Source of the DNA: Prevotella sp.
Lineage (GTDB): Bacteria > Bacteroidota > Bacteroidia > Bacteroidales > Bacteroidaceae
Reading direction: 5' to 3'
DNA: 19,012 bases
Assembly: GCA_022732315.1 (NCBI GenBank)
Contig: JAIJUV010000033.1
Coordinates: 1-19,012, forward strand
Shown: positions 11,864 to 18,417 of the stretch, piece by piece
Numbering within the stretch: the stretch's first letter is position 1
Layout of the letters: every line of letters begins with the position of its first letter
The notes under the pieces: model-generated
What the model was told of the DNA's origin: nothing
The model's database searches: none
Seen by the model: only the letters and a program-made list of their open reading frames with translations
Position numbers and translations under genes: made by a program

Positions 11864-13051
11864 TTATATTCTCTTTCCAACCTTTGCGGCAACAAACGCA
11901 ATCATCAAACCCAGACAGGCGGCGATGCTGATGGCTATGCGGAGACCGGTGGCCTCAGCAAGCCATCCGATAACCGGTGGTCCTACCAGGAAACCGAAGA
12001 AACTGATGCTCGAAACGATGGTGATGGCAATGCTAGCCTTGATGGTTCCGAGTTTTCCGGCGATACTGTAACAGATAGGAACCGATGAAGAGATGCCGAA
12101 ACCTACCAGCAGGAAGCCCAAGGTGGCAGGAATCAGATAAGGCAAGGCGGCAGCCAGCCACAAACCACCCACAATCAAACCACCACAAACCTTCAATACC
12201 TTGGATGGTCCGTATTTCGTAACGAAACCATCAGCCATGAATCTGCCCAAGGTCATCGCTCCCATGCCAGCCACATAGCCCGCACGGATAAAAGCCTCAT
12301 CGGGTTTTACTACAGATGAGAAATACACACCACTCCAATCGTAAACAGTTCCTTCACAGAACATGCCGGCAAATCCCATCAATCCCAGGAGAAAAAGAAT
12401 CGGGTCGATGGTCTTGAAAGAGAACTTCGGCACATCCTCCTCTTCTGCCTTCGCCGTAGCATCATCTACAAGAAAACGGAATCCGATGGCGATGATAAGA
12501 AGACTCATCGCCAGGATGGCTCCAAAGTGAACCTCTATCGGAAGCAGGGTATTGGCAAAGACGGCTCCGATGATACCGCCCGAGAATCCGCCCAAACTCC
12601 ACAAGCCATGAAATGAAGACATGATGTTGCGCCCATACATCTTCTCTACCAGGCAAGCCTGGGTATTGGTGGCGATGTTCATCAGATTCGCCATCATTCC
12701 GAAAGCCATCAGACTCAATATCAGTTTGAAAACCGTAGTGCTGCTTCCTATGCAGAAGAGCACCAATGCATAGAGAATTTCAGATAAGGCAAGCATCCTC
12801 TTGCTGCCAAACCTGCTCACCAAGACACCCGAGAAAGCCATCATCAGAAGCTGACCGATAGGAATGGCGAAAAGCACCGATCCCAACTGTCCGTTGCTCA
12901 AGTGCAACATTTGCTTTACATCCGGAATGCGGCTTGCCCAACTGGCAAACACCACGCCCGGCACAAAATAATAAGCTGCAACAGCCACTCGCTTACGGGT
13001 TAAATCTCCCAAATTACTCAAACTATTCATATTACTCAAACTTACAGTCAT
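11864..13051 (-). CDS. MFS transporter, YbjJ-like
   Basis: 395 residues, 12 predicted membrane helices, inner membrane. The N-terminal VPGVVFASWASRIPDVK, the loop VSRFGSKRML, and SSFHGLWSLGGFSGG in helix 5 are typical of the YbjJ-like branch of the MFS, whose substrates are poorly known. It is distinct from the sugar porters: the RxGRK and PESPRW motifs are missing. Two starts are possible, 13051 and 13030. The N-terminus reads SLSNMNSLSN because of an 18-base duplication, so the extra seven residues may be a recent addition. It is divergent from the SGNH hydrolase gene and transcribed alone, ending at the strong terminator. Its link to the sugar locus is unproven. Confidence 0.85.
   Translation of the reverse strand: MTVSLSNMNSLSNLGDLTRKRVAVAAYYFVPGVVFASWASRIPDVKQMLHLSNGQLGSVLFAIPIGQLLMMAFSGVLVSRFGSKRMLALSEILYALVLFCIGSSTTVFKLILSLMAFGMMANLMNIATNTQACLVEKMYGRNIMSSFHGLWSLGGFSGGIIGAVFANTLLPIEVHFGAILAMSLLIIAIGFRFLVDDATAKAEEEDVPKFSFKTIDPILFLLGLMGFAGMFCEGTVYDWSGVYFSSVVKPDEAFIRAGYVAGMGAMTLGRFMADGFVTKYGPSKVLKVCGGLIVGGLWLAAALPYLIPATLGFLLVGFGISSSVPICYSIAGKLGTIKASIAITIVSSISFFGFLVGPPVIGWLAEATGLRIAISIAACLGLMIAFVAAKVGKRI
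13013..13042. repeat. 12-bp direct repeat in the start region of the YbjJ-like gene
   Basis: ATTACTCAAACT occurs at 13013-13024 and 13031-13042, a period of 18, so the frame is kept. It produces the duplicated SLSN peptide and a second in-frame ATG. Confidence 0.8.
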
Positions 13052-13120
13052 CCTTCTTAATACCTTATTTTATATGCCTTTTAATATGCCTATTTATGTA
13101 CTTATTTATATTTGCGGCTG

Positions 13121-13128
13121 CAAAATTA
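13121..13128 (-). promoter_or_regulatory. -7 box of the YbjJ-like gene
   Basis: The minus strand reads TAATTTTG followed by C, a match to TAnnTTTG, about 69 bases before the first start codon. No good -33 TTTG is seen. Confidence 0.5.
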
Positions 13129-13173
13129 CAAAAAAATGCAGAAAAACACCGATATTTGAACAAAAAATGTAGC

Positions 13174-13201
13174 TTTGTTTAAGAAATTAGCCGTAACTTT
13201 G
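13174..13201 (+). promoter_or_regulatory. Promoter of the SGNH hydrolase gene
   Basis: TAACTTTG (13194-13201) fits the -7 consensus and lies 32 bases before the ATG. A TTTG at 13174-13177 is 16 bp upstream, somewhat short for a -33 element. Confidence 0.6.
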
Positions 13202-13233
13202 CACTTAGAAAAAGAATTAAAAACAAACTAGCA

Positions 13234-14100
13234 ATGAAGAAACAGACAATGATTACCCTGGCACTCGCCTTGACTTTGGCGATGCCAACCATGCCCGCCT
13301 TCGCCCAGAAGGCGATGAGCAAGAAAGAAATCGCCGAAAAGGAAAAGGCTTTCAAGAACCTTCAGCATCCCTGGAAGGGAAAGAAGGTGGCTTACTTCGG
13401 CGACTCCATCACCGATCCAAGAATCAAGGCATCGAAGGTGAAATACTGGGGATTCCTGCAGGATTGGCTCGGCATTACCCCCTACGTTTATGGCGTGAGC
13501 GGCAGACAGTGGAACGACATTCCCCGACAGGCTGATCTACTCCAGAAAGAGCATGGTGATGATTTCGATGCCATTCTCATCTTTATGGGTACGAACGATT
13601 ACAACAACGGTGTGCCTATCGGTGAATGGTATACGGAGACTTTCGACAGCGTAAGGGTAGCCCTTCACAAGCCAAGCGAAATGGTTCAGCGTCGCCATCG
13701 TCATTTTGCCATGGATGGGAACACCTTGAAAGGTCGCATCAACATAGCCATGTCGAAGTTGAAGCAGATGTATCCTACCAAGCAAATTGTGGTGATGACT
13801 CCTATCCATCGTGCTTACTTTGGAAGCAGCGACAAGAACATTCAGCCAGATGAGATGTTTGAGAACGTTCGTGGCATTTTCTTCGATGAATACGTGAAGG
13901 CGATTAAGGAAGTGGGCAATGTGTGGGCAGTACCGGTCATCGACCTCAACTCCCTTTCGGGACTCTTCCCTCTTTACGATGCTGGTGCCCAGATGTTCAA
14001 CAAGCCGAATACCGACCGTCTTCATCCTAATGATGCCGGCCACTCGCGCATGGCGAAGACCATCATGCAGCAGCTCTCTGCATTGCCTTGCGACTTCTAG
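13234..14100 (+). CDS. Secreted SGNH/GDSL hydrolase (esterase/lipase family)
   Basis: 288 residues with a Sec signal peptide (residues 1 to about 24, ending AFAQ). All four SGNH blocks are visible: block I AYFGDSIT with nucleophile S58, block II YGVSGRQ with a glycine, block III GTND (119-122), and block V TDRLHPNDAGH with D261 and H264 of the triad. Such enzymes cleave acyl or acetyl esters from sugars or lipids in the periplasm or outside. The neighbouring glycosidases make a carbohydrate esterase plausible, but it is separated from them by another gene and has its own promoter. No motif tells the substrate. Confidence 0.9.
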   Translation: MKKQTMITLALALTLAMPTMPAFAQKAMSKKEIAEKEKAFKNLQHPWKGKKVAYFGDSITDPRIKASKVKYWGFLQDWLGITPYVYGVSGRQWNDIPRQADLLQKEHGDDFDAILIFMGTNDYNNGVPIGEWYTETFDSVRVALHKPSEMVQRRHRHFAMDGNTLKGRINIAMSKLKQMYPTKQIVVMTPIHRAYFGSSDKNIQPDEMFENVRGIFFDEYVKAIKEVGNVWAVPVIDLNSLSGLFPLYDAGAQMFNKPNTDRLHPNDAGHSRMAKTIMQQLSALPCDF

Positions 14101-14161
14101 AGAAGGGGCAGCAGATATTGAAAAGTGTATTATTTCACCCCTATTTTATATTGAAAAAAGT

Positions 14162-14295
14162 GTAAATTTCCGCAGGGATTTGCCTATATTTTAGGTAAAT
14201 TTCTGCGTTTTTTGCCTATTCTTTAGGAAGGTTATCATATAAGTTGCCTATGTTTTAGGAAAGTTTCACTATATTTTTGCCTATGTTTTAGGAAA
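14162..14295. repeat. Four phased 19-bp palindromes upstream of the DUF4143 ATPase
   Basis: Copies of TTGCCTATnTTTTAGGWAA start at 14180, 14212, 14244 and 14277, so the period is 32, 32 and 33 bp, close to three helical turns. Each is an inverted repeat of the form TTnCCTA-N5-TAGGnAA. The first two spacers also share GTAAATTTCYGC (14162, 14195), which shows that the units arose by duplication. The last copy covers the -33 TTTG of the promoter. This looks like an operator array for a dimeric regulator. Confidence 0.85.
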
Positions 14296-14309
14296 AAAGA
14301 GTAACTTTG
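14276..14309 (+). promoter_or_regulatory. Promoter of the DUF4143 ATPase gene
   Basis: TTTG (14276-14279), a 22-bp spacer and TAACTTTG (14302-14309) fit the Bacteroidota promoter consensus. The -33 element lies inside the fourth palindrome. AGAAGG at 14324-14329 is an unusually good ribosome binding site, 8 bases before the ATG at 14338. Confidence 0.75.
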
Positions 14310-14337
14310 CAGCATAACTTAAAGAGAAGGAAACGTT

Positions 14338-15681
14338 ATGATATATAGACAATTGACAGAAGAACTCCAGAAATGGAGTGAAAGAGACAACAGGAAGCCA
14401 TTGGTTTTACGAGGCGCAAGACAAGTTGGAAAGACAACATTAGTCAATGAATTGGGTAAGAAATACGATATATATATCAAACTGAATCTAGAAAAAAGCT
14501 CAGATGCAGAAATCTTTGCCAAATCAGACAATGTAAAAGAGATATATCAATACATCTGCCTCAAGAAGAAAATTAAGGTAGATGAACGTAAGCGTACCCT
14601 ACTTTTTATTGATGAGATACAAAACGAACCAAAAGCAGTTGGTCTGCTGAGATACTTCTATGAAGAGATGCCCTGGTTGCACATCATAGCAGCAGGTTCC
14701 AGACTTCAAACCCTCATCAAGCAGCGCATCTCTTTCCCAGTGGGAAGAGTGGATTATCTATCCCTCCGTCCATGCTCCTTCCTGGAATATCTCGATGCTA
14801 TAGGTGAAGACCAATTGGCACAAATGGTGAAAGAAGTCAGCGTATCACCTTTATATCACGAGATGTTACTGAACCATTTCAACCATTACACCTTGATAGG
14901 TGGTATGCCTGAAGCCCTAGTGGAATATGCTAAGACTCATAACCTGACCAAGTTAGCCCCTATCTACCGTTCACTGCTTGATGGCTACAATGAAGATGTA
15001 GAAAAATATGCTCGTAATGAAAACCAAGTAAAGGTTATCCGCCATCTGCTTACACATGGCTGGGCAGAGGCAGGACAAACTATTACCTTCGCTCGATTTG
15101 GAGGCAGCAACTACACAAGCAAGGAGGTACATGAGGCTTTGGAAGTGATGCAGAAAGCATTCCTGCTCAATTTGGACTATCCCGTCACATCAGTGAAAGC
15201 CCCAGCTGTACCAGCCATAGCAAGACAACCCAAGCTAGTATGGGTAGATACGGGCATCATGAATTTCTCCGTTGACATTCAGACAGAATATCTGCAAGGC
15301 AATTCCCTCTTGGATGTATGGAAGGGGCATGCTGCGGAACAAATCGTAGCCCAAGAGCTGCGTATTGTTTTGGATCGCAACTTCCGCAACGAGCAATATT
15401 ACTGGGTAAGAGACAAAAAGGGATCTTCAGCAGAGGTAGATTTCGTTTGGCAACATCACTCACAGATTCTCCCGATAGAAGTGAAGTCTGGCACAAATGC
15501 CCATCTTCGCTCCCTCCACTCCTTCATGTCTCAGCCTGATGCCCCAAGTATTGCCATCCGCATTTGGCCAGGAGAATATAGCATAGACGAAGTGGTATCT
15601 CCTACAGGTCATCCCTTCCGCCTCATCAATCTTCCCTTCTATTATATGGGGATACTGGATAAGATATTGGAAATGGTATAA
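14338..15681 (+). CDS. AAA ATPase with DUF4143 domain
   Basis: 447 residues. Walker A is GARQVGKTT (26-34) and Walker B is TLLFIDEIQ (87-95, D92 and E93). A sensor-like AAGSRL and the family segment GRVDYLSLRPCSFLEYL follow. The C-terminal DUF4143 region ends in a nuclease-like fold with E366, D368 and E381-V-K383, the order of a PD-(D/E)XK active site (SAEVDF, then LPIEVKSG). Members are common in many copies in Bacteroidota and their job is largely unknown; defence, DNA transactions and toxin-like roles have been proposed. It is transcribed alone from a promoter carrying a palindrome array and lies next to a decayed restriction gene, which suits an accessory island. Confidence 0.9.
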   Translation: MIYRQLTEELQKWSERDNRKPLVLRGARQVGKTTLVNELGKKYDIYIKLNLEKSSDAEIFAKSDNVKEIYQYICLKKKIKVDERKRTLLFIDEIQNEPKAVGLLRYFYEEMPWLHIIAAGSRLQTLIKQRISFPVGRVDYLSLRPCSFLEYLDAIGEDQLAQMVKEVSVSPLYHEMLLNHFNHYTLIGGMPEALVEYAKTHNLTKLAPIYRSLLDGYNEDVEKYARNENQVKVIRHLLTHGWAEAGQTITFARFGGSNYTSKEVHEALEVMQKAFLLNLDYPVTSVKAPAVPAIARQPKLVWVDTGIMNFSVDIQTEYLQGNSLLDVWKGHAAEQIVAQELRIVLDRNFRNEQYYWVRDKKGSSAEVDFVWQHHSQILPIEVKSGTNAHLRSLHSFMSQPDAPSIAIRIWPGEYSIDEVVSPTGHPFRLINLPFYYMGILDKILEMV

Positions 15682-15702
15682 TTTATGCAAAATTGCATAT
15701 TT

Positions 15703-15721
15703 GGGTAGCCTTACGCTACCC
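15703..15721. terminator. Hairpin between the convergent ATPase and HsdR fragment
   Basis: GGGTAGC (15703-15709) pairs perfectly with GCTACCC (15715-15721) around CTTAC. A short palindrome TATGCAAAATTGCATA precedes it at 15684. There is no T tract on either side, so intrinsic termination is uncertain. The hairpin overlaps the stop codon of the HsdR fragment. Confidence 0.4.
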
Positions 15722-16487
15722 ATCCATATCCTTGCACCGCCATATCCACAAAGTGATTGAACAGCAGATTCGTCTTATCATTGAATGATACTCGGTCGTA
15801 ACTCATCGGCAAGTCTTCATTGAGCGATGTCTGTATCAAGGCAAACACCTGATGGCGAGGCTGTTCGTCCTTATACCAATCCACCACCATCACCTTCTCC
15901 TTCTCTGCCAAGAGTTTCTGATAGAGATTCTTCGAAGCCAATATCACCTTCTGCTCTTCCTCCTTTGTCAACTTGCGGTCAGACCTCAAAAGGTCGAAGA
16001 TTTCCAGTTCCTCTTCCTCCAATCCCAAGTCTGTGGTGCGACTCTGCTCCTTCTTCAAGTCAGCGATGAGCTGAAGCAGCATATCATAATAATCCTCATT
16101 CTCACTACCGCCAGCATTATATCTGTCGATGATATTCTTATATCGCTGAGAGAATGGAATGCGAGTACAATTCTTATTAATCAATTGCTTCAATGTTCGC
16201 TCAATAAAAGCACGCAGGTCATCTATCTCCAACGCCTTATAAGGAGTGCTGTTGATTTCCTTGCGCAATGCATCCACATCCAGTTTGCTCAGGTCAATGA
16301 CCTTGCCTTGATGGATGGTATATTCAGAAGAAGGATGAATATCATCGGCAACCATATCTCCGGATGCATACGCCGACACACTGTATCGGGGTGACATTCC
16401 TCTAGCTTTGGGAACAGGATCAAAATAGAAGCGGATTGACCTTCTTCCTTTTGCATCAAAATCAGCAAACCGAGATAAAATATTGAT
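15711..16487 (-). pseudogene. hsdR: C-terminal remnant of type I restriction subunit HsdR
   Basis: The open frame runs from just after an in-frame stop at 16488-16490 to 15711; the first ATG, at 16397, gives 228 residues. The text fits the C-terminal helical region of HsdR (DUF3387 type): KVIDLSKLDVDALRKEI, ALEIDDLRAFIERTLKQLI, the NCTRIPFSQRYKNIIDRYN block and EEELEIFDLLRSDRK. The N-terminal nuclease and the motor domains that make HsdR an enzyme are missing, since full-length subunits have about 1000 residues. No hsdM or hsdS is nearby and no promoter is visible. I read it as a broken gene. A short expressed protein from 16397 cannot be excluded, as the frame is intact over 258 codons. Confidence 0.75.
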
Positions 16488-16493
16488 TTATGA

Positions 16494-16643
16494 GAGAAAA
16501 ACTATGGTTTTAGGCATGTTTCGGGGCCTGGATACTATACAATTAAGCCAAAACAGCTTTTGAACATCATAGAAAAAGATATACCTGTTTTATTACCACA
16601 AATCAGACAACTACTTGATTCTATGCTAATTACAGAAGAATAA
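16494..16643 (+). pseudogene. 3' remnant of an unrecognised gene
   Basis: An open frame of 49 codons plus a stop begins right after a TGA at 16491-16493 and has no start codon near its beginning. It reads like real protein: YGFRHVSGPGYYTIKP, then KQLLNIIEKDIPVLLPQIRQ, and it ends ITEE. I do not recognise the family. Its 5' border lies within 6 bases of the 5' border of the HsdR remnant on the other strand, so both seem to have been cut at one junction. Confidence 0.4.
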
Positions 16644-17034: not shown

Positions 17035-17883
17035 ATGATTAACGACAGAAGACAACTGGCTGATGTATATCAGCAAACCATAGATATCGTGCAGGAGGGA
17101 AACTATACTTCTGTGAATGGGGAGGAAGTGGAACTCTTGGACAATGAACCCATGCTCAAGGGTAGTAGATTCTATACCAAGGCTTTAGATGCCACAAGCA
17201 TACCTACCATTGAGGGAGGAACAAAGATCATTGTAGAGAATGATGACAGCATACATTGCGGACATCAATTACAGCAAGAAGGTTACAATCCGGTGGTGCT
17301 CAACCTTGCCAGCCGTCGCAACCCTGGCGGTGGTGTATTGAATGGCAGCAGGGCTCAGGAGGAAAGTCTCTTCCGCTGCACCAACCTCTTCCTTTCCATG
17401 TACCGCTATGCCTCTTATGCAGAAGAATATGGACTAGAGAAAAGCAAATACCAGTATCCGATCGCCATTCCTTTTGGTGGCATCTATGTTCCTAAAGCCA
17501 CTGTATTCAGAGCTGGAGCCAAGCACGATTTCGCTCTGCTCGACAATCCTTATTATATGTCGTTCGTAGCCGTGCCAGCCATCAATCACCCACTACAGGA
17601 TGAAAATGGAAACATGGGCAAAAGAGATGCCGAGATTACTAAGAATAAGATGCGAACGATATTGAGAATTGGATTGCTGCATGGTCATGACAGCATCGTA
17701 CTTGGAGCCTTTGGCTGTGGAGCTTTCCGCAATCCTCCTCGCAGCATCGCCCAATTATTCCATGAAGTGATAGATGAGACGGAATTCAAAAACAAATATA
17801 AGCTCATTGCTTTTGCCATCCTCGAAGACCATAATTCACCAAAAGGAGGAAACCTCCAACCTTTCGTTGACGAATTCAAGTAA
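17035..17883 (+). CDS. Microbial-type poly(ADP-ribose) glycohydrolase (TIGR02452 family)
   Basis: 282 residues, close to the usual family length. The macrodomain-type fold carries the bacterial PARG signature: VVLNLASRRNPGGGVLNGSR with GGG at 98-100, then QEE at 108-110, where the second glutamate (E110) is the expected catalytic residue. GAFGCGAFRNPP is the second ribose/phosphate-binding loop of macrodomains. These cytosolic enzymes remove ADP-ribose chains or single ADP-ribose from targets. A DarT-like partner toxin is not seen nearby. The gene is first in an operon with a DNA alkylation repair gene 30 bases downstream. That suggests a role in DNA damage response or ADP-ribose turnover, which is inference. 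Confidence 0.9.
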   Translation: MINDRRQLADVYQQTIDIVQEGNYTSVNGEEVELLDNEPMLKGSRFYTKALDATSIPTIEGGTKIIVENDDSIHCGHQLQQEGYNPVVLNLASRRNPGGGVLNGSRAQEESLFRCTNLFLSMYRYASYAEEYGLEKSKYQYPIAIPFGGIYVPKATVFRAGAKHDFALLDNPYYMSFVAVPAINHPLQDENGNMGKRDAEITKNKMRTILRIGLLHGHDSIVLGAFGCGAFRNPPRSIAQLFHEVIDETEFKNKYKLIAFAILEDHNSPKGGNLQPFVDEFK

Positions 17884-17913
17884 TAAAGATTCCGTTTAAT
17901 CGTATTTGATAAA

Positions 17914-18417
17914 ATGCAGCAAATAAACATCCAATATTACAACTCGCCCTGCGGAGAGTTAATTCTGGCATCTGTGGGTGATGATTTGTGTCTTTGTGAT
18001 TGGAATGAAATGCCATGTGCAGGGCGCAATAAGCTTCGGGTTTCGCGGTATATGAAGGCTGAGTTCAAGATTGAAACATCCCCTATCCTGGAACTGGCCA
18101 AGAAGCAGCTGAATGAATATTTCACCGGCAACCGCAAGACATTCGATATTCCGTTGCATCCTATAGGAACCGATTTTCAGAAAAAAGTATGGAGTGCATT
18201 GCTCGATATACCTTACGGAGAAACAAGAAGCTATAAGGAAATAGCCATAAGTATGGGTAACTCCAATGGCACAAGAGCCGTGGCAAGCGCCATCGGAGCT
18301 AATGGCATCAGCATTTTCATTCCCTGCCATCGCGTTATCGGCAGTAATCGTTCCTTGACTGGCTTTGCTGGAGGACTGGAAGCTAAGAGAATATTGCTGG
18401 AGCTGGAGACGGAATAA
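17914..18417 (+). CDS. ogt: Methylated-DNA--[protein]-cysteine S-methyltransferase
   Basis: 167 residues, the usual length of Ogt-type proteins. It moves the methyl group from O6-methylguanine (and less from O4-methylthymine) to its own cysteine, in the cytosol, once per molecule. Landmarks are FQKKVWSALLDIPYGETRSY (88-107, the winged helix), RAVASAIGANG (121-131, with the arginine that flips the base) and IPCHRVIG, with C138 as acceptor. The N-terminal domain (1 to about 80) is the short ribonuclease H-like part; no AdaA metal-binding region is present. It is the second gene of the operon with the PARG-like protein. Confidence 0.95.
   Translation: MQQINIQYYNSPCGELILASVGDDLCLCDWNEMPCAGRNKLRVSRYMKAEFKIETSPILELAKKQLNEYFTGNRKTFDIPLHPIGTDFQKKVWSALLDIPYGETRSYKEIAISMGNSNGTRAVASAIGANGISIFIPCHRVIGSNRSLTGFAGGLEAKRILLELETE

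Follow-up and report, generated by a model that had tools for sequence, protein, structure and literature searches.

An array of four near-identical 19–21 bp copies of the repeat TTGCCTATnTTTTAGGnAA ends at the promoter of an AAA_14/DUF4143 ATPase gene in a 19,012-nt stretch of Prevotella sp. DNA (the window). Homologous genes in relatives are preceded by tandem repeats of different sequence that are likewise 32–33 bp apart. Judged from the sequences, what is common to the family, in some DUF4143 clades only, is the spacing and the place of the repeats and not their sequence. We propose that the window array serves the ATPase gene as a private operator, and that the ATPase probably (at roughly 65%) binds its own array and represses itself.

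Results

The array at the window locus

The features of the locus are collected in Table 1. The start-to-start steps of the array are 32, 32 and 33 bp, and CCTA-N5-TAGG is exact in all four copies, confirming the four copies at a 32–33 bp period upstream of one gene that the initial annotation had described. The longer pattern it gave, TTnCCTA-N5-TAGGnAA, is exact in three copies and fails in copy 2 at the last base (AAG). The core with at most one mismatch is not rare (8 occurrences in the window against 5.15 expected); the four exact occurrences all lie inside the array. Bacteroidota promoters have a −33/−7 consensus. Copy 4 opens with TTTG, ahead of TAACTTTG, which places the last copy over the −33 region, as first annotated.

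Table 1. Features of the ATPase locus (window coordinates).
Feature	Position	Strand	Remarks
Second, weaker repeat pair, TATTGAAAAGTGTA-like	14115..14168	+	33 bp apart, just upstream of main array
Array copy 1	14179..14199	+	19-mer 14180–14198; also within terminator-like hairpin
Array copy 2	14211..14231	+	19-mer 14212–14230
Array copy 3	14243..14263	+	19-mer 14244–14262
Array copy 4	14276..14296	+	19-mer 14277–14295; over −33 TTTG 14276–14279
−7 box TAACTTTG	14302..14309	+	Bacteroidota type
ATPase gene, 447-residue ORF	14338..15681	+	AAA_14 + DUF4143; PADLOC PDC-S01
Walker A GARQVGKT	14413..14436	+	residues 26–33
Predicted winged-helix domain	15019..15276	+	residues 228–313; within part covarying with repeat sequence
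PD-(D/E)XK-like motif AEVDFV...PIEVKSG	15430..15492	+	E366, D368, E381, K383 invariant in 25 aligned proteins

The upstream neighbour of the ATPase gene is a GDSL hydrolase gene on the same strand, and a 16-pair, T-tailed terminator-like hairpin (14171–14207) that encloses copy 1 could terminate it. No transcription factor gene adjoins the ATPase gene in the window, in agreement with the initial annotation. A lone 228-aa ORF (15711–16397), convergent with the ATPase gene, matches only an HsdR-like type I restriction C-terminal domain and is perhaps a remnant. At 17035–18417 lie a microbial PARG-like (TIGR02452) gene and then a methylated-DNA cysteine methyltransferase gene.

The weaker repeat pair is similar to the operators of other family members (L451, L137) and might reflect cross-regulation or remnants. 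Second arrays were found upstream of 7/154 genes, five of them unlike the main array (0/154 in shuffled sequences).

We also considered an RNA element and rejected it: Rfam gave no match at the gathering threshold in window positions 13000–16500, and most tabulated Bacteroidota promoters carry no copy downstream of the −7 box (see below).

Arrays of constant spacing and changing sequence

The exact tandem motif of the window was found in 0/100 relatives, and on this ground a single family-wide operator sequence was rejected. The nearest genome among those compared (G001) has 42% of sampled 31-letter words in common with the window. As a single copy, the pattern occurs in at least 119 scattered stretches across genome contigs, which we read as chance. 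Four viral-contig stretches matched a looser motif; their repeats are of GCCTATTTTTT type, and a tblastn search of them gave no ATPase relative. The backward-pattern control of the tandem-motif scan turned up pairs of GGATTTGCAATCC-type units with a step of about 30 bp, dispersed over 61 places per strand in G066 (L459, L461) and 5 in G001 (L460, L462).

Arrays before homologous genes include CCCCTGATTTACACCAAA in four copies (L123), TTCGTTAGAAAAAATGTA in four (L129) and AAAATGTGATTTT in three (L136). With an array defined as at least 15/18 identical letters at 31–34 bp, 137 of 198 long-clade genes carry one, compared with 8 of 286 other genes (Fisher p 9e-61, which gives the scale only, since the genes are related); genes shorter than 330 residues were left out of this comparison, as were those with less than 150 nt upstream. 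The controls, ORFs of 100 or more residues, came from 20 stretches in 16 of the same genomes. Control genes with at least 100 nt to the upstream ORF reached the threshold in 7/154 cases, and dinucleotide shuffles of the upstream regions in 1/990 (lags 31–34). The annotated association of a promoter-overlapping, three-turn-spaced array with the ATPase gene is supported, and the random scatter without a link to ATPase genes that would have spoken against it was not seen.

The spacing rule was formed on early homologue loci and then seen in later sets (genus, viral contigs and plasmids). Long-clade arrays were present in 31/39 genes from relatives (L144 gave no match; nine loci with partial N-termini and L127, with a short upstream region, were left out), 67/79 from the genus (L350 and L369 dropped), 15/28 from viral contigs (29/34 loci scanned, with the near-duplicates L318/L319, L321/L322/L325, L324/L328, L333/L334 and L336/L337 counted apart) and 10/15 from plasmids (15 of 72 matching records). 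The proportion was 9/18 in genomes reached through contig-scan records and 4/16 in the phylum sample; among small sets it was 0/2 for further G001 genes and 1/1 for the window. The 61 long-clade genes below the threshold include some with weaker or 66-bp arrays and others with none (L440, L444). A script chose the start codons, and some upstream regions may be misplaced as a result; that of L349 looks so.

The array criterion was passed at first by 82/181 upstream regions, and 84 more genes brought the total to 155 arrays, with two copies in 43, three in 78, four in 29, five in 2 and six in 3. Their 309 spacings (31 bp, 3; 32 bp, 91; 33 bp, 210; 34 bp, 5) are 32 or 33 bp in 301 cases, with a mean of 32.70 and a standard deviation of 0.51 bp, a spread bounded by the method because copies were searched for in steps of 30–35 bp. 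In an unbounded test over lags of 14–80, the best lag was 31–34 in 68/84 genus genes, 63–67 in 6 and elsewhere in 10.

Distribution among clades and phyla

The rule does not extend to DUF4143 genes at large, and the other clades mostly lack an array at this spacing. Non-long DUF4143 genes reached the threshold in 23/81 cases, and among the best 30 PF13635 matches of the phylum sample only L218 and L220 reached 15/18 at 31–34 bp. In a 151-protein tree, 32–33 bp arrays fall mainly in two clades (49/73 and 12/21 rows), compared with 3/57 elsewhere. The clade labels, derived from a regular expression and from length, are rough, in that some genes truly of the long clade lie outside 'long' and the truncated L130 and L139 fall in 'short'. 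With ties broken towards 31–34 and then 21–23, the best lag was 31–34 in 20/24 short genes, 21–23 in 5/7 EPR-type genes, and 23 in two of three GPKxxGKT genes (46 in the other); controls under the same tie rule gave 44/286 at 31–34 and 35/286 at 21–23. Genes of the GPRQ(S/T)GK label are mostly bare (2/21 reach 15/18 at any lag). Other PDC-S01 clades seem to have arrays with a period of 22–23 (or 46) bp, two turns and not three, in few genes (L223, L241, L242, L257, L258, L260, L261, L233).

Beyond the Bacteroidota, arrays precede homologues in Candidatus Izemoplasma, Erysipelotrichaceae, Lachnospiraceae, Clostridiales and Treponema (23/30 loci of the further-phyla set were scanned; the script made no gene call at L284, which is not read as absence). 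Plasmid-collection records add Collinsella, Glaesserella, Vibrio coralliilyticus, Acinetobacter, Fusobacterium animalis and Agathobacter, and a Criblamydia record has a weak array (p 0.06). Records below the threshold are those of Segatella copri DSM 18205 (L440), Fusobacterium vincentii (L444) and two Vibrio (L447, L454); Bacteroides plasmid L446 has a 66-bp pair only. Arrays are therefore seen in Bacteroidota and on records of Bacillota-type lineages, Spirochaetota, Actinomycetota, Pseudomonadota and Fusobacteriota, and perhaps Chlamydiota.

Asymmetric repeats over the promoter

The initial annotation had taken each copy for a palindrome bound by a dimer. The first copies of the two nearest array-bearing homologues, TTTGCCTATGTTTTGCATAAA (65% identical protein) and TTGCCTATGTTTTAGAAA (57%), lack the short CCTA...TAGG symmetry of the window, and palindromy in array consensi is no higher than in shuffled letters (0.499 and 0.507, respectively). 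We therefore rejected a conserved palindrome; single binders arranged head to tail fit better than dimers. The likeness between the repeats of homologues is also confined to the same strand (see below).

A TAnnTTTG box is present upstream of 113/119 Bacteroidota array genes and of 96/286 controls. The most downstream such box, which we took as the −7 box, begins 14–31 nt beyond the first base of the last upstream copy in 74/110 genes. Among the 12 commonest layouts, which cover 111 of the 113 genes, copies downstream of the −7 box are absent from 79 promoters and present in 32. The −33 region would mostly lie under an occupied copy, so that repression is favoured, by geometry only.

The ATPase

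The window protein matches PADLOC PDC-S01 (PDLC04788, E 6e-179, residues 1–446), a phage defence candidate composed of an ATPase and a PD-(D/E)XK domain, and PDC-S01 models match 10/10 chosen clade representatives too. The match lends support to the "perhaps defensive" role in the initial annotation. AAA_14 (PF13173) scores 88 bits, the DUF4143 domain was found, and the Walker A and B motifs are intact, with G26, G31, K32, D92 and E93 invariant in 25 aligned proteins. The D...E-x-K catalytic signature is likewise present (D368, E381 and K383), and the C-terminal part is a candidate PD-(D/E)XK-type domain and a putative nuclease.

An AlphaFold2 model of the ATPase has a pLDDT of 88.9 (the winged-helix part folded alone, without an alignment, reached 50 and was not used). 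Structure matches mostly cover residues 1–329. Foldseek places the AAA+ fold close to ORC/Cdc6, RuvB and MuB filaments, and alignments to CED-4 and NLR structures cover residues 1 to 313–331, an NBD-helical-WHD arrangement as in STAND/NLR-like ATPases. A sequence search of the PDB gave a sole match, by chance (E 1.6). From the STAND/AP-ATPases and archaeal ATPases (CED-4, plant NLRs, Sso1545 [2fna] and PABY2304 [2qen]), with which it shares 13–16% identity, the window ATPase differs by its PD-(D/E)XK-like C-terminus.

The repeat sequence follows the protein

Distances between motifs and between proteins correlate on the same strand (Mantel r 0.44, permutation maximum 0.07) and not on the opposite strand (0.00), in a set of 115 of 131 long-clade arrays from which rows at least 90% identical had been removed. 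The repeat sequence is best tracked by residues about 226–360, the predicted winged helix included, and the partial correlation peaks at residues 241–285 (z about 7). Column-level covariation is noisy, with 18 of the top 30 columns in residues 226–345 yet the strongest at residue 105, so that specificity residues cannot be named. Covariation and shared descent are not fully separable in these sequences.

In 41 cross-genome pairs with 60–97% protein identity, the repeats are 71% identical, compared with 35% for spacers in register and 47% for spacers shifted to their own best fit. In 120 pairs with 45–60% identity the repeats (54%) are barely more similar than best-shifted spacers (51%). Pairs within one genome share a motif in 0/31, 0/38 and 1/10 cases (15–25, 25–35 and 35–50% identity), but sharing is also rare between genomes (2, 7 and 17% of pairs of like identity), so the same-genome figures say little alone. 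The three motifs tested are nearly confined to their own promoters: in the single-contig genome G062 two motifs match their own promoters only, except that one of the two also matches five places at 3 mismatches, and in the single-contig genome G212 a third matches its own promoter and one place at 3 mismatches.

Discussion

We infer that the ATPase is the binder, as the initial annotation had allowed, since the part that covaries with the repeats lies within it, and that repression is the effect and release is tied to activation by an invader. Copies of the ATPase would sit head to tail on the array, one on each repeat, with each winged helix reading one asymmetric ~18-bp repeat and the protein oligomer fixing the 32–33 bp step (about 3 x 11 bp). 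With the −33/−7 region under occupied copies, transcription of the ATPase gene would be shut off and the ATPase kept low. Paralogues would avoid cross-talk because the repeat and the winged helix of each have diverged in step.

It is unlikely that the binder of each array is another host protein, made from a gene elsewhere and controlling the ATPase gene in trans. Dedicated small repressors can run defence genes, as RptR does on three direct repeats (PMC12255303, in part), and a helix-turn-helix, LuxR- or MerR-type gene lies in the 1.5 kb flanks of three of 14 annotated plasmid stretches (L443, L446, L450). No neighbour recurs in these 14 stretches, however, three Vibrio plasmids excepted, and the window has no transcription factor gene next to the ATPase gene; unlike arrays in one genome would each need their own regulator, the three tested motifs are nearly confined to their own promoters, and the covarying part sits in the ATPase itself. 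Slightly less probable again is that the array serves mainly for loading or assembly, in the manner of a centromere or of iterons, or as a substrate or decoy of the nuclease, with transcription a by-product. The nearness of the fold to ORC/Cdc6, RuvB and MuB filaments in Foldseek points that way, as do regular repeats that suit an oligomer and the fact that clades differ in period, near 33 or near 22 bp, each a multiple of 11; against this, the motifs are absent downstream of the gene (0/104), rare in the coding part (2/154, 1/154 shuffled) and far upstream (2/151, one an extension of its array), and the −7 box goes with the arrays.

It is very improbable that the repeats arose by neutral tandem duplication or belong to a dispersed repeat element. 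Copy number does vary, from 2 to 6, and Vibrio plasmid ATPases that are 97.5–98.9% identical have three repeats (L449) or one (L447, L454), a difference of 64 bp or two repeat units; the spacing, which the initial annotation had linked with copy number as a possible free variable, hardly varies, the repeats are kept over the spacers in close pairs, and arrays are rare before other genes. A dispersed MITE such as BrickBuilt was rejected: it is a minisatellite MITE with 23-nt repeats, and the word ATPase is absent from the main text as excerpted (PMC4596501).

The nearest functional parallel to the preferred reading, autoregulation by the ATPase, is RptR, to judge from excerpts of its description. 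This 9-kDa repressor of a restriction-modification/DarTG2 defence island, separate from the effectors, represses its own defence promoter by binding three direct repeats that overlie it; these repeats are 9 bp long and have one conserved palindrome, TAGCTA (PMC12255303). The ATPase arrays differ in having gene-specific, ~18-bp asymmetric sites about 33 bp apart, and the window repeat, TTGCCTATnTTTTAGGnAA, is not of the 9-bp TAGCTA type. Autoregulating antitoxins, C proteins and phage repressors use operators specific to themselves, by which paralogues or plasmids stay orthogonal; in the present case the large ATPase-nuclease would itself do the reading. Antitoxins and C proteins are also named in excerpts of the RptR paper (PMC12255303). 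A Thermus DUF4143 gene, TT_P0211, is 6.6-fold up in a plasmid-bearing strain, in an Argonaute-bearing background only (PMC4406477, in part), which is suggestive and not evidence of autoregulation.

In excerpts of its description, PDC-S01 is a very common, unvalidated defence candidate, with validation pending for most PDCs (PMC12988326). Excerpts of that paper and of PMC13356809 contain no operator, regulation or mechanism for PDC-S01, and a search among openly licensed papers yielded none on repeats before PDC-S01/DUF4143 genes; what is new relative to PDC-S01 as described in those excerpts is the private arrays.

The winged helix of CED-4 and NLRs acts in autoinhibition and is not known to read an operator, and in NLRs it moves on activation. 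A more tentative extension of our proposal, possible though doubtful, is that PDC-S01 is an NLR-like bacterial sensor parked on its own promoter. At rest, the ATPase would grip the array through its winged helix and keep the gene silent. An invader would move the winged helix, and the DNA would be released, the gene induced, and the oligomer and nuclease freed at once. Each paralogue would have a private address, a genome could hold many orthogonal self-addressed sensors, and winged helix and repeats would amount to a protein-DNA code that can be read.

Of the putative defence systems, this gene family is one of the most abundant. A gene-specific conserved operator would give a direct handle on it, predicting the binding target of the protein and offering a reporter of its trigger. 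Private operators would explain the coexistence of many paralogues, and from the natural protein-site pairs, over a hundred here alone, a winged-helix recognition code could be derived.
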